Position numbers and translations under genes: made by a program. A stretch of DNA of 51,759 bases, from the NCBI GenBank assembly GCA_017994695.1, contig JAGOKF010000020.1, positions 1 to 51,759 of the forward strand, given 5' to 3'. The notes under the pieces are model-generated. The model was not told where the DNA came from. It was given only the letters and a program-made list of their open reading frames with translations, and made no database searches. Origin of the DNA: Myxococcota bacterium. GTDB taxonomy: Bacteria; Myxococcota_A; UBA9042; DTJE01. Numbering within the stretch: the first letter of the stretch is position 1; every line of letters starts with the position of its first letter. Shown one piece after another: positions 9,052 through 15,652 of this stretch.

Positions 9052-11484
<2,433 letters not shown>

Positions 11485-11531
11485 CCCGCTGCAGGAAATC
11501 GGAGGGGCGATCCCTCCGCGAAAAGCGGCCT

Positions 11532-11537
11532 ATTATA
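11532..11537 (-). promoter_or_regulatory. Putative leuS operon -10 box
   Basis: On the minus strand this reads TATAAT, a perfect -10 hexamer 47 bases before the leuS start. No strong -35 is apparent. The core is nearly symmetrical (CTATTATAG), so it could also serve the divergent propeller gene at 11627. Confidence 0.45.
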
Positions 11538-11626
11538 GACCGTTGTTCGCCGGGCGGATGCCCGGTCGCGAGGGGAAGGACGCGCCTTTCGGGAAACGCC
11601 CGGGGCCCCGAGGAGGAGAGGAACGA

Positions 11627-13270
11627 ATGAGAAGGGGATTTCCGCTGACGCTGGCCGTGGCGCTGCTCGGGGTCTCGGAGGCCCGGGGGGCCTGGACCGA
11701 CTGGAAGCCGATCCTCCGGCAGACGGACCCCGACGACCTGCTGATGGCCGTCGATGCCCTGTCGCCCCGGCTGTTCTTCGCCGGAGGCCTCCAGGTGAAG
11801 ATGACCGGCGGCATGTTCCCGACCATGAAGCCGGTGATCTACCGCAGCCAGGACGGCGGCACGACGGTGCAGCCCATCCTGGGTGGCCTCTCGGGCGCGA
11901 TGGGGGACTTCGTGTCGGCCATCTCGATGGAGAGCCTGACTAGCGGCATGGCGGCCATGGGGGCGGACGCCTGGATCACCCGCAACGGGGCCACCTGGCA
12001 GAAGGTGGCGCTCCCGGGGATCGGCGAGGGCCAGGTGGGAGCGATCCAGGCCCTGGGAGGCGGCGAGGGGGTCGCCGTCGGGTCCTCGGGGGGCGCCTGG
12101 AGGACCCTCGACGGCGGGGCCTCCTGGTCGCAGGTCTCCACCGGAACCCGGGCGGACCTGGGGTGCCTCTTCTTCCGGGACCGGCTCCGGGGATGGGCGG
12201 CGGGGGCCATCGTGACCGAGGAGGAGACCGAGGAGATGCGGACCCTGTTGTCCTACGGCGACGTGGTGGTGCTGGGGACCACCGACGGGGGGGCGTCCTG
12301 GAAGGTGCTGGCCACGCTGCCGCCGGACTCGAAGGCCGACGGGGCCGGGGGAAAGACCGCCTGTCCCCTCTTCTTCCTCCCCGATGGCCGGACGGGGTTC
12401 CTGGCCCTGTCCCGCTACGACCGGGACAAGGGGCGGGCCCGGGAGGCGCTGCTCTACCGCACCGCCGACGGGGGCGCCTCGTGGCAGGACACCGGCACCG
12501 ACTTCCAGGTCGGCACGCTGAACATGTTCATGAAGATGCCGATCCGGGTGTCCTACCTGGCGGGGATGTTCTGGCAGGACGCCGATCACGGCCACCTGGT
12601 CGGGGCGGCGGACACGGGGATGTCCGGTTCGAGCGGTGGCGGAGGGGGCGACCAGTCCATCTACCGGGCGGTGGACATGATCACGCTGGACGGCGGGCGC
12701 ACCTGGGACAAGACGGACATCGGGGAGATCTCCTTCAACGTGGGGGGCGGGATGATGCCCCAGGGGGACCCCCGGCCCACCCGGGCGCGGTTCCTGGACT
12801 GGTACACCGCCTGGCTGGTGGGGGAGAAGGGGAACGTCTGGTGGTGGGACTACAAGTGCATCAAGCAGAGCCAGTGCCTGCCGGGGTATCGGTGCGAGAA
12901 GCGCGAGGGCGACGAACACCCCCGCTGCTACCCCGACGCGGGCAGTCCCGACGGGGGATCCGGGGAGACCGGGGGAGGGGGTGATCTCCCGGGAACTCGG
13001 GACGCGGCAACGGGGGAGGAGGCCGGGGGCGGGGACCTGGTGGTGCTTCCCGACGCGGGGACCTGCGAGGGGGATTGCGGTCCTGCCGGCGGTTCCGGGG
13101 GAGGGTGCCGGGCCTCGGCCCGGGGGACCGGCCTGCTGCCGGCGCTGCTGGTGCTGGCCTGGCTGGCAGGGCGGGCGGCCAAGGGGCGCCGAGGACGATC
13201 CGCCCCGGTGGCCGCGACGGGGGGCTTCCGGGCCCGGGAGGGATCGGGCCGGGCGCAAAAAACCCCTTGA
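11627..13270 (+). CDS. Secreted beta-propeller (BNR/YCF48-like) with MYXO-CTERM-like tail
   Basis: A 547-residue exported protein. It starts with a signal peptide (MRRGFPLTLAVALLGVSEARGA) after a strong ribosome-binding site AGGAGGAGAGG. The body, about residues 24-410, contains repeated DGG-x-(S/T)W blades (SQDGGTTVQPI, TLDGGASWSQ, TTDGGASWKV, TADGGASWQD, TLDGGRTWDK), typical of BNR/sortilin or photosystem-II-assembly-like propellers. A short Cys module (CLPGYRCEKREG) and a Gly/Asp-rich linker follow. The C-terminus has a Gly-Gly-Gly-Cys, a hydrophobic segment (GLLPALLVLAWLAG) and an Arg/Lys cluster, the arrangement of MYXO-CTERM sorting tails, though about 25 further residues trail it. It is probably surface-anchored; the ligand is unknown. 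Confidence 0.8.
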   Translation: MRRGFPLTLAVALLGVSEARGAWTDWKPILRQTDPDDLLMAVDALSPRLFFAGGLQVKMTGGMFPTMKPVIYRSQDGGTTVQPILGGLSGAMGDFVSAISMESLTSGMAAMGADAWITRNGATWQKVALPGIGEGQVGAIQALGGGEGVAVGSSGGAWRTLDGGASWSQVSTGTRADLGCLFFRDRLRGWAAGAIVTEEETEEMRTLLSYGDVVVLGTTDGGASWKVLATLPPDSKADGAGGKTACPLFFLPDGRTGFLALSRYDRDKGRAREALLYRTADGGASWQDTGTDFQVGTLNMFMKMPIRVSYLAGMFWQDADHGHLVGAADTGMSGSSGGGGGDQSIYRAVDMITLDGGRTWDKTDIGEISFNVGGGMMPQGDPRPTRARFLDWYTAWLVGEKGNVWWWDYKCIKQSQCLPGYRCEKREGDEHPRCYPDAGSPDGGSGETGGGGDLPGTRDAATGEEAGGGDLVVLPDAGTCEGDCGPAGGSGGGCRASARGTGLLPALLVLAWLAGRAAKGRRGRSAPVAATGGFRAREGSGRAQKTP

Positions 13271-13295
13271 CAGGAAGGCTGGATCCCCGCATCAT
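13267..13295 (+). promoter_or_regulatory. Putative sigma-70 promoter of speD
   Basis: TTGACA (13267-13272) is separated by 17 bases from CATCAT (13290-13295). It overlaps the stop codon of the preceding gene. Transcription from it would give a leader of about 120 bases ahead of speD. Confidence 0.55.
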
Positions 13296-13332
13296 CTCGT
13301 CCGTTTTCCGGGGGCCATCCCCGGACCAAGTC

Positions 13333-13349
13333 GGCCGTTCCGAACGGCC
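13333..13349 (+). other. Hairpin in speD leader
   Basis: GGCCGTT (13333-13339) pairs perfectly with AACGGCC (13343-13349) over the loop CCG. It lies just upstream of the ATG-TAG and the pseudoknot-capable segment. No T-run follows, so it is not a classic terminator. Confidence 0.45.
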
Positions 13350-13350
13350 A

Positions 13351-13368
13351 GGGAGGTGGGTCATGTAG
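13351..13368 (+). promoter_or_regulatory. Shine-Dalgarno plus bare ATG-TAG start-stop element
   Basis: GGGAGG (13351-13356) is followed after 6 bases by ATG immediately followed by TAG (13363-13368). As written, a ribosome could initiate and terminate at once, 50 bases upstream of the speD start. A ribosome held there would cover the 5' arm of the downstream stem at 13372. The function is inferred. Confidence 0.4.
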
Positions 13369-13371
13369 GTT

Positions 13372-13420
13372 GAGGTCGGGCGCTGGATGCCCGGCCTCGT
13401 GTCAAAGGAGGGCATCCAAA
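13372..13420 (+). promoter_or_regulatory. Candidate riboswitch-like pseudoknot leader of speD
   Basis: GAGGTCGGGC (13372-13381) pairs over all 10 positions (one G-U) with GCCCGGCCTC (13389-13398). The 7-base loop contains TGGAT (13384-13388), which is complementary to ATCCA (13414-13418). This gives an H-type pseudoknot whose third loop holds the speD Shine-Dalgarno AAAGGAGG (13404-13411). Alternatively TGGATGCCC (13384-13392) pairs with GGGCATCCA (13410-13418), which breaks the first stem and occludes the ribosome-binding site. Two exclusive folds at the start of an S-adenosylmethionine-consuming enzyme suggest metabolite control. I could not match it to a known SAM riboswitch consensus by eye. 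Confidence 0.5.
13404..13411 (+). promoter_or_regulatory. Ribosome-binding site fixing the TTG start of speD
   Basis: AAAGGAGG is placed 9 bases before TTG 13421. No ATG or GTG in frame lies at a suitable distance, so this site decides the start. Confidence 0.75.
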
Positions 13421-13828
13421 TTGAACGCGCTGGGCCGACACCTCGTGGCCGATTTTCATGGCTGCACCGCGGACCTGAACGATCCGGAACTGGTGATGAA
13501 GGGGCTGGAAGGGGCCTGCGAGGTCTCCGGGGCCACCATCATCAGCCGGACGGGCTACCACTTCAGCCCGTACGGGGTCACCGCGGTGGTCGTGATCGCC
13601 GAATCGCACCTCGCGGTGCACACCTGGCCGGAGTACCGGTACGCGGCGGTGGATCTCTTCACCTGCGGCACCTCCGTGGACACCTGGAAGGCCTTCGAGT
13701 TCGTCAAGAAGGCCTTCGGGGCCAGCCGCGTCGACCTCAAGGAGATCGCCCGGGGCCAGTTGAGCCAGCGGGAGATCGCCGAGGCCCAGGGATACGTGGC
13801 GCCCTCCGACCGCTCCGTGGCCGCCTAG
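13421..13828 (+). CDS. speD: S-adenosylmethionine decarboxylase proenzyme
   Basis: A 135-residue class 1b (Thermotoga/Bacillus type) AdoMet decarboxylase. It makes decarboxylated SAM, the aminopropyl donor for spermidine. The proenzyme cleaves itself between E61 and S62 (IAESHLAVHTWPE), creating the pyruvoyl group from S62. H67 and C82 (DLFTCGTS) are the conserved processing and catalytic residues. The length fits the family (120-140). Translation starts at TTG, fixed by AAAGGAGG. It has its own likely promoter and a structured leader. No speE, speA or other polyamine gene is adjacent. Confidence 0.95.
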   Translation: MNALGRHLVADFHGCTADLNDPELVMKGLEGACEVSGATIISRTGYHFSPYGVTAVVVIAESHLAVHTWPEYRYAAVDLFTCGTSVDTWKAFEFVKKAFGASRVDLKEIARGQLSQREIAEAQGYVAPSDRSVAA

Positions 13829-13867: not shown

Positions 13868-13939
13868 CGGCGCCGTTTCGGGGTTCTTTGGCATCGCAGG
13901 GGGCAGTGGTCGCCGGGGTGGTCGCGTCGAGGAAGCCGT

Positions 13940-14014
13940 GCGCCTGTAGCTCAGCCTGGATAGAGCAGCGGACTTCTAATCCGCCGGTCGGAGGTTCAAA
14001 TCCTCTCAGGCGTA
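13940..14014 (+). tRNA. tRNA-Arg (UCU anticodon)
   Basis: The acceptor stem GCGCCTG pairs with CAGGCGT (terminal G-U pair), discriminator A. The anticodon arm is GCGGA-CTTCTAA-TCCGC, giving anticodon TCT. The T arm contains GGTTCAAATCC. CCA is not encoded. Confidence 0.95.
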
Positions 14015-14058
14015 CCCGCTCCTTCCTGGCGGGGGAGAGGTGGCGGCAGCGTTTCGAT

Positions 14059-14135
14059 GGTGCCTGTAGCTCAGTTGGCAGAGCACTGGATTGTGGCTCC
14101 AGGTGTCGTGGGTTCAAATCCCTCCAGGCACCCCA
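14059..14135 (+). tRNA. tRNA-His (GUG anticodon), CCA encoded
   Basis: The acceptor stem GTGCCTG pairs with CAGGCAC. The extra G at 14059 (G-1) opposite discriminator C 14132 is the histidine identity mark. The anticodon arm is CTGGA-TTGTGGC-TCCAG, anticodon GTG. The T arm is GGGTTCAAATCCC. CCA follows at 14133-14135. Confidence 0.95.
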
Positions 14136-14181
14136 TGCAGCGTGCGAATGGATGGCGTTCCCGGCCCCCTGCCCCTTGCCT

Positions 14182-15652
<1,471 letters not shown>

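Follow-up and report, generated by a model that had tools for sequence, protein, structure and literature searches.

The locus comprises speD, which encodes the S-adenosylmethionine (SAM) decarboxylase proenzyme, and its 5' leader, both located on a contig of 51,759 nucleotides from a Myxococcota bacterium (JAGOKF010000020.1, hereafter called the window). An ORF at 11369-13270 lies 5' of speD, and its stop codon (13268-13270) falls within the -35 hexamer that belongs to the promoter of speD; the encoded protein carries a hydrophobic C-terminal stretch that resembles a MYXO-CTERM sorting tail. On the 3' side, speD is followed by a tRNA cluster, Arg-TCT, His-GTG and Arg-TCG, at 13939-14255, and in the related genome G001 (L030) three tRNAs are found downstream of speD with identical spacing. 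A gene of the spermidine-synthase family (PF01564) is also present in this genome.

The features of the leader are collected in Table 1. A preliminary description of the window had listed the sequence GGGAGG (13351-13356), the ATG-TAG pair, a 10-bp stem, the TGGAT and ATCCA segments and a competing helix, and all of these were found again at their places. The promoter, the P0 and P1 hairpins, the GTGTC block and a seven-codon form of the mini-ORF in relatives had not been noted before. With the transcription start taken from the promoter, the predicted leader length is about 115-120 nt. The relatives share a common plan, i.e., promoter, P0, P1 (ending 0-2 nt before SD1), GGGAGGTGGGTYATG, mini-ORF, P2, GTGTC, SD2 and the TTG start codon; by eye, TTGAC is seen about 17-18 nt ahead of an AT-rich hexamer in them as well.

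Table 1 Features of the speD leader in the window
Feature	Position	Strand	Remarks
Sigma-70-like promoter, TTGACA-17-CATCAT	13267..13295	+	10/12 matches; shuffles mean 0.0
P0 hairpin, CCGGGG-GCCAT-CCCCGG	13308..13324	+	near predicted mRNA 5' end; equivalents of different sequence in most relatives
P1 hairpin, GGCCGTT-CCG-AACGGCC	13333..13349	+	adjoins the mini-ORF Shine-Dalgarno on its 5' side; 95.5% of cells paired
SD1, GGGAGGTG, ribosome-binding site of the mini-ORF	13351..13358	+	GGAGGTG invariant in 12/12; distance to ATG constant
Mini-ORF, start-stop ATG-TAG	13363..13368	+	7-8 codons with TGA end in seven relatives
P2 hairpin, 10 bp, 7-nt loop GCTGGAT	13372..13398 (arms 13372-13381/13389-13398)	+	covariation
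TGGAT	13384..13388	+	inside the P2 loop
Competing helix, 5' strand TGGATGCCC	13384..13392	+	9 bp with GGGCATCCA
GTGTC, unpaired block directly after P2	13399..13403	+	retained in 11/12 leaders (alignments)
SD2, AGGAGG, of speD	13406..13411	+	sequence
Competing helix, 3' strand GGGCATCCA	13410..13418	+	includes ATCCA of the proposed pseudoknot; intact in G000, G001, G005 and G012, interrupted in G011
ATCCA	13414..13418	+	
speD, SAM decarboxylase proenzyme, TTG start	13421..13828	+	TIGR03330, 127.8 bits, above cut-off; PF02675

Each of the 13 genomes examined from the window's family has a speD gene, and in 12 of them the covariance model of the leader (R1) detected a single copy, always directly 5' of speD; the start codon of speD is TTG in each of the 12. 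The remaining genome, G010, possesses an orthologous speD without the leader. Application of the model to the other 272 of the 284 phylum genomes scanned gave only one weak match (E 0.085), by-eye reading of about 65 further leaders of speD from this phylum revealed no equivalent, and no copy was detected before genes other than speD in the 12 genomes. A second occurrence of GGAGGTGGGTCATG in the genome was considered as another leader and rejected, as it is the ribosome-binding site of an ordinary gene. The element looks specific to this family of uncultured, myxobacteria-like bacteria and to speD within the species examined. The speD leader is a real, conserved RNA, and its lack of an Rfam 15 match points to one that is apparently new to description.

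Other arrangements were observed upstream of speD elsewhere in the phylum. The leaders L028, L100 (G059) and L016 (G027) and that of the second speD of G010 share a different motif, GAGGAGRGGGnGnGTGTTGACTGGGT...GCCCCCTTTT before GGAGGG, which is not the same element as the leader of the window's family. One genus (G094, G233, G276 and G280, with leaders L136, L127, L125 and L126) carries a conserved GC-rich leader, CATGCGGGCCCCCTGTTGCATCGGGCCCCCGTGCAAGAGG. In G121 (L175), G182 (L134) and G213 (L141), the speD TTG overlaps a two-codon ORF, ATG-AAT-TGA or ATG-GAT-TGA, located right after GGAGGAAC. Possible short upstream ORFs (uORFs), MRSGQGGYLNFG and MRWPPLT, each followed by a stop, precede speD in L018 (G020) and L017 (G030) of another family, and no conserved hairpins were seen in these two leaders.

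The pairing of P1 and P2 is retained by compensating changes. With hand-placed arms in the 12 leaders, the covariation score of P1 and P2 together was 0.583 against 0.250 for shuffled controls (0/500) and at most 0.170 with the partners slid, and changes on both sides were found in five of six P1 pairs and three of eight P2 pairs, figures for which the P1 arms were picked by eye because they pair, the counts are inflated by relatedness, and the 12 leaders of a single family reflect few independent events. For P2 alone, the model-made alignment (R1, itself fitted to P2) gave 0.309 against 0.155 (0/500 shuffles). The stem noticed in the window as P2 is in this way borne out by covariation among the 12 family leaders. 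P1 differs greatly in its letters between genera and still pairs. The folding energies of the P1 and P0 segments alone were modestly better than those of shuffles (mean z about -1.4 and -1.5, respectively); P0, equivalents of which are weaker or unclear in G004, G006 and G009, is the weakest part of the plan because its folding energy exceeds the controls only modestly.

Membership of a known RNA class was not supported. The preliminary description had pointed to SAM-II, SAM-V and SAM/SAH riboswitches as models to be compared, and a search of Rfam returned no match to these, to SAM-I-type or to other riboswitch or leader families at the gathering score; at E up to 10, the window leader matched only ybhL, H19_1 and Scr6106, all far below cut-off. 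A hairpin followed by a T run, as in an intrinsic-terminator attenuator, was looked for in the leader and was not found. A new metabolite-binding riboswitch, in which the GGAGGTGGGTYATG and GTGTC strands flanking P2 would form a pocket for SAM, decarboxylated SAM or a polyamine and the ATG and stop would be incidental aptamer letters, is one alternative. The covarying helices are bordered by highly conserved unpaired blocks, the leader is tied solely to a SAM-consuming polyamine gene, and GTGTC is not explained by translation of a uORF. In other bacteria, speD is among the polyamine genes that follow the spermidine riboswitch, a SAM-I variant described in 2023 (PMC10853860). Control of a polyamine gene by RNA would be the shared feature, but the SAM-I-type aptamer of the spermidine riboswitch has no Rfam counterpart here. 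Against an aptamer, the conserved 5' block is fully accounted for as a Shine-Dalgarno sequence and start codon, with the same GGAGGTGGGTCATG before an ordinary gene of the genome, and the P1 and P2 loops are not conserved. Moreover, the in-frame stop is retained despite the variable length and sequence of the loop, and it relocates. Taken with the lack of a Rfam family, these points make such a riboswitch rather improbable. For GTGTC, pairing partners in the P1 loop, in SD1 and in the coding region of speD were also considered and rejected: its complement GACAC in the window, located in the first speD codons, is not kept in relatives.

The strong ribosome-binding site SD1 and the ATG, which P1 and P2 frame, are kept in all 12 leaders, and an in-frame stop follows by codon 9 in every one of them (chance 0.14-0.28 each); a short ORF with its own ribosome-binding site, as in uORF attenuators, is therefore conserved throughout the 12. 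Its length takes two forms. In G002, G003, G004, G007, G008 and G009 the mini-ORF has seven codons ending in TGA, and in G006 it has eight, being exactly 3 nt longer with the frame kept; in these longer mini-ORFs the TGA sits in the P2 loop. In G000, G001, G005, G011 and G012, which belong to two sister genera only, TAG stands at codon 2 and no TGA is left in the loop, and the loop TGA is lost only where the codon-2 TAG has been gained. The five ATG-TAG genomes form one clade (94/94) in the tree of leucyl-tRNA synthetase (LeuRS). Since this is a single clade and the other branches with a leader have the longer form, the most parsimonious account is that a seven-codon mini-ORF was shortened to a start-stop pair a single time, its stop relocating from codon 8 to codon 2. 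The ATG-TAG pair is thus kept in all five genomes of its clade but not family-wide, the seven other relatives having seven to eight codons. An absence of covariation together with an absence of ATG-TAG conservation had been named as grounds for abandoning the initial proposal; it came through this check, as P2 covaries and ATG-TAG is kept clade-wide. An in-frame upstream start of speD was ruled out, because spacing and frame vary among the relatives.

In the genome G000, the pattern GGAGG-N4-8-ATGTAG occurs nine times against ten in the reversed control, which is the background level, so that the pattern alone is not unusual and conservation must carry the argument. This background frequency, together with a match between P2 loop and spacer that by itself reaches only p about 0.07 in the window, would agree with a start-stop pair and complementarity that arose by chance and have no function. 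At the same time, conservation, covariation and relocation of the stop across seven genera disfavour chance, which we regard as the least credible explanation. A constitutive expression or stability element is also conceivable, with hairpins at the 5' end protecting the mRNA and SD1/AUG serving as a place where ribosomes load or stand by for the weak TTG, without any sensing. The position of P0 near the predicted 5' end, the abutment of P1 on SD1 and the TTG start of speD in 12/12 leaders are consistent with it. However, a standby site would need no AUG with a nearby in-frame stop, and it is difficult to account for a stop that stays close by and yet moves if termination is of no importance. 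The relocation suggests that termination at the mini-ORF does matter, and a constitutive role is an unlikely, if respectable, alternative.

The sequence of the encoded peptide, on the other hand, has not been conserved. Most differences between sister species replace an amino acid (MNLGPER/MNLRSDR and MNLGPTA/MRLGSAA), and the letters that are similar lie largely within the paired P2 arm. An attenuator of the speFL/mdtU type, in which a nascent M-(N/R)-L-G-(P/S) would stall the ribosome when a polyamine or an amino acid is sensed, can draw on a weak resemblance that the seven longer mini-ORFs show in codons 2-5 and on precedents for uORF attenuation of polyamine genes (PMC6386406, PMC7815308). 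Yet a conserved nascent peptide of this type was not found, five genomes encoding Met-stop alone, and the shared letters of the others overlap the paired arm of P2; a sensor of the nascent peptide is unlikely, and a stalling attenuator of this kind very improbable. Judging from the comparison of these mini-ORFs, it is probably initiation and termination that count and not a peptide.

The competing fold over the speD Shine-Dalgarno has a narrower distribution than the hairpins. Compared with shuffled spacers, the 9-bp masking helix stood out in the window (p about 0.001), G012 (0.025) and G005 (0.042), but not in G011 or outside the ATG-TAG clade. It is limited to that clade and intact in four of its five genomes, reading TGGATGCCC/GGGCATCCA in g1 and TGTTGCCC/GGG(C/T)AGCA, with compensating letters, in G012 and G005; only TGTT/AACA plus CCC/GGG are left in G011. 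For the clade, the folding predictions favour the masked fold over the P2 fold by 5.8-9.7 kcal/mol, and forcing P2 raised the predicted accessibility of SD2 from 0.17 to 0.54 in the window, the rise being smaller elsewhere (0.17 to 0.23 in G005). Only in the ATG-TAG clade do the predictions also show a long-range fold in which SD1-AUG pairs with codons of speD. The leaders of the seven relatives outside it have no predicted alternative that masks SD2. The masking helix of the two-state switch proposed earlier is thus intact in four of five clade genomes, but it is not a family-wide design. A structural link between the mini-ORF and SD2 is a prediction for this clade only; at the same time, P2 overlaps the longer mini-ORFs and covaries, and with no masking alternative outside the clade one mechanism need not fit both forms. 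Because masking is the predicted ground state in the clade even without a ribosome, the P2 state would hinge on folding kinetics. The pairing of TGGAT with ATCCA, initially proposed as a pseudoknot, uses nucleotides of the masking helix, so that its support is not separable from that of the helix; it could act as the first contact (toehold) for strand exchange.

The reading we favour, to which about an even chance may be assigned, is that the structured 5' leader sets speD translation through translation of the mini-uORF. SD1 would load ribosomes, and a ribosome on the mini-ORF would have to open P2, since P2 begins 8-9 nt past the AUG, within the ribosome footprint. The readout would be occupancy (initiation, termination and recycling) and not the peptide. 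In the ancestral form, where termination occurs 33-36 nt before the speD TTG, the ribosome would end in the P2 loop, from where it would act on speD through coupling, through reinitiation or as a block. In the ATG-TAG clade, P2 would be the first structure to form during transcription and would represent the open state; a ribosome at the AUG would cover the 5' arm of P2 and free the loop and 3' arm, which could then zip onto the speD Shine-Dalgarno, lowering speD. The control probably serves polyamine feedback, and the likely purpose would be a response to the polyamine or SAM state through translation with no dedicated aptamer. The ligand and the sign of regulation are guesses, and these as well as the mechanism we infer; polyamine feedback on initiation or termination would, as a guess, fit the pathway, for which the PF01564 gene is present. 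Among the points against control by the mini-uORF, it leaves the GTGTC block unaccounted for, and the speD ortholog of G010 has no leader. On the comparative evidence, the ribosome is a better candidate for the switch than the ligand riboswitch with possible pausing that was first suggested.

Several described systems resemble the leader in part. In the speFL (orf34)-speF leader of enterobacteria, translation of a short uORF refolds the RNA around the ribosome-binding site of the gene (PMC6386406), and in the E. coli mdtU-mdtJI leader, uORF translation is required for the spermidine response (PMC7815308). As in the speD leader, a short uORF precedes a polyamine gene in speFL, but speFL has 34 codons, a conserved peptide and Rho involvement and serves ornithine decarboxylase, whereas Met-stop or 7-8 codons with no conserved peptide precede speD here, in a different phylum. 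The mdtU uORF also has 34 codons, with a conserved C-terminus, and belongs to an exporter; the present mini-ORF stands before a biosynthetic gene. In plants, AdoMet decarboxylase is preceded by tiny and small uORFs, and NIP5;1 by AUG-stop (reviewed in PMC7503886). The likeness lies in an AdoMet decarboxylase with a tiny uORF and in AUG-stop as a regulatory unit, while the plant systems involve eukaryotic translation and mRNA decay without homology, and the bacterial leader adds covarying hairpins and a Shine-Dalgarno sequence. Bacterial start-stop sites have been reported from ribosome profiling, in a work that cites E. coli studies (PMC11955535); in these, the start is followed by a stop at once or within a codon, as here, but the sites are internal and out of frame, and none is described there as the conserved leader of a metabolic gene. 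In the open-access literature, with subscription papers mostly outside this scope, no paper on a uORF-controlled bacterial speD was found.

The bacterial uORF attenuators that are, to our knowledge, known in detail act via arrest peptides or codon-specific pausing. In the speD leader, the peptide appears dispensable and the leader outlasted the shift of its stop from codon 8 to codon 2, so that the act of initiating and terminating may itself be the sensed step. More tentatively, and with less confidence than in mini-uORF control as such, the start-stop pair may be the switch, a ribosome that initiates and terminates without making a peptide picking between two mRNA folds; a longer mini-ORF would have shrunk to this form, which would parallel the plant AUG-stop and AdoMetDC mini-uORFs independently. 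The role of bacterial AUG-stop units thereby becomes directly testable. For AdoMet decarboxylase, bacteria and eukaryotes may separately have reached mini-uORF control of one enzyme.
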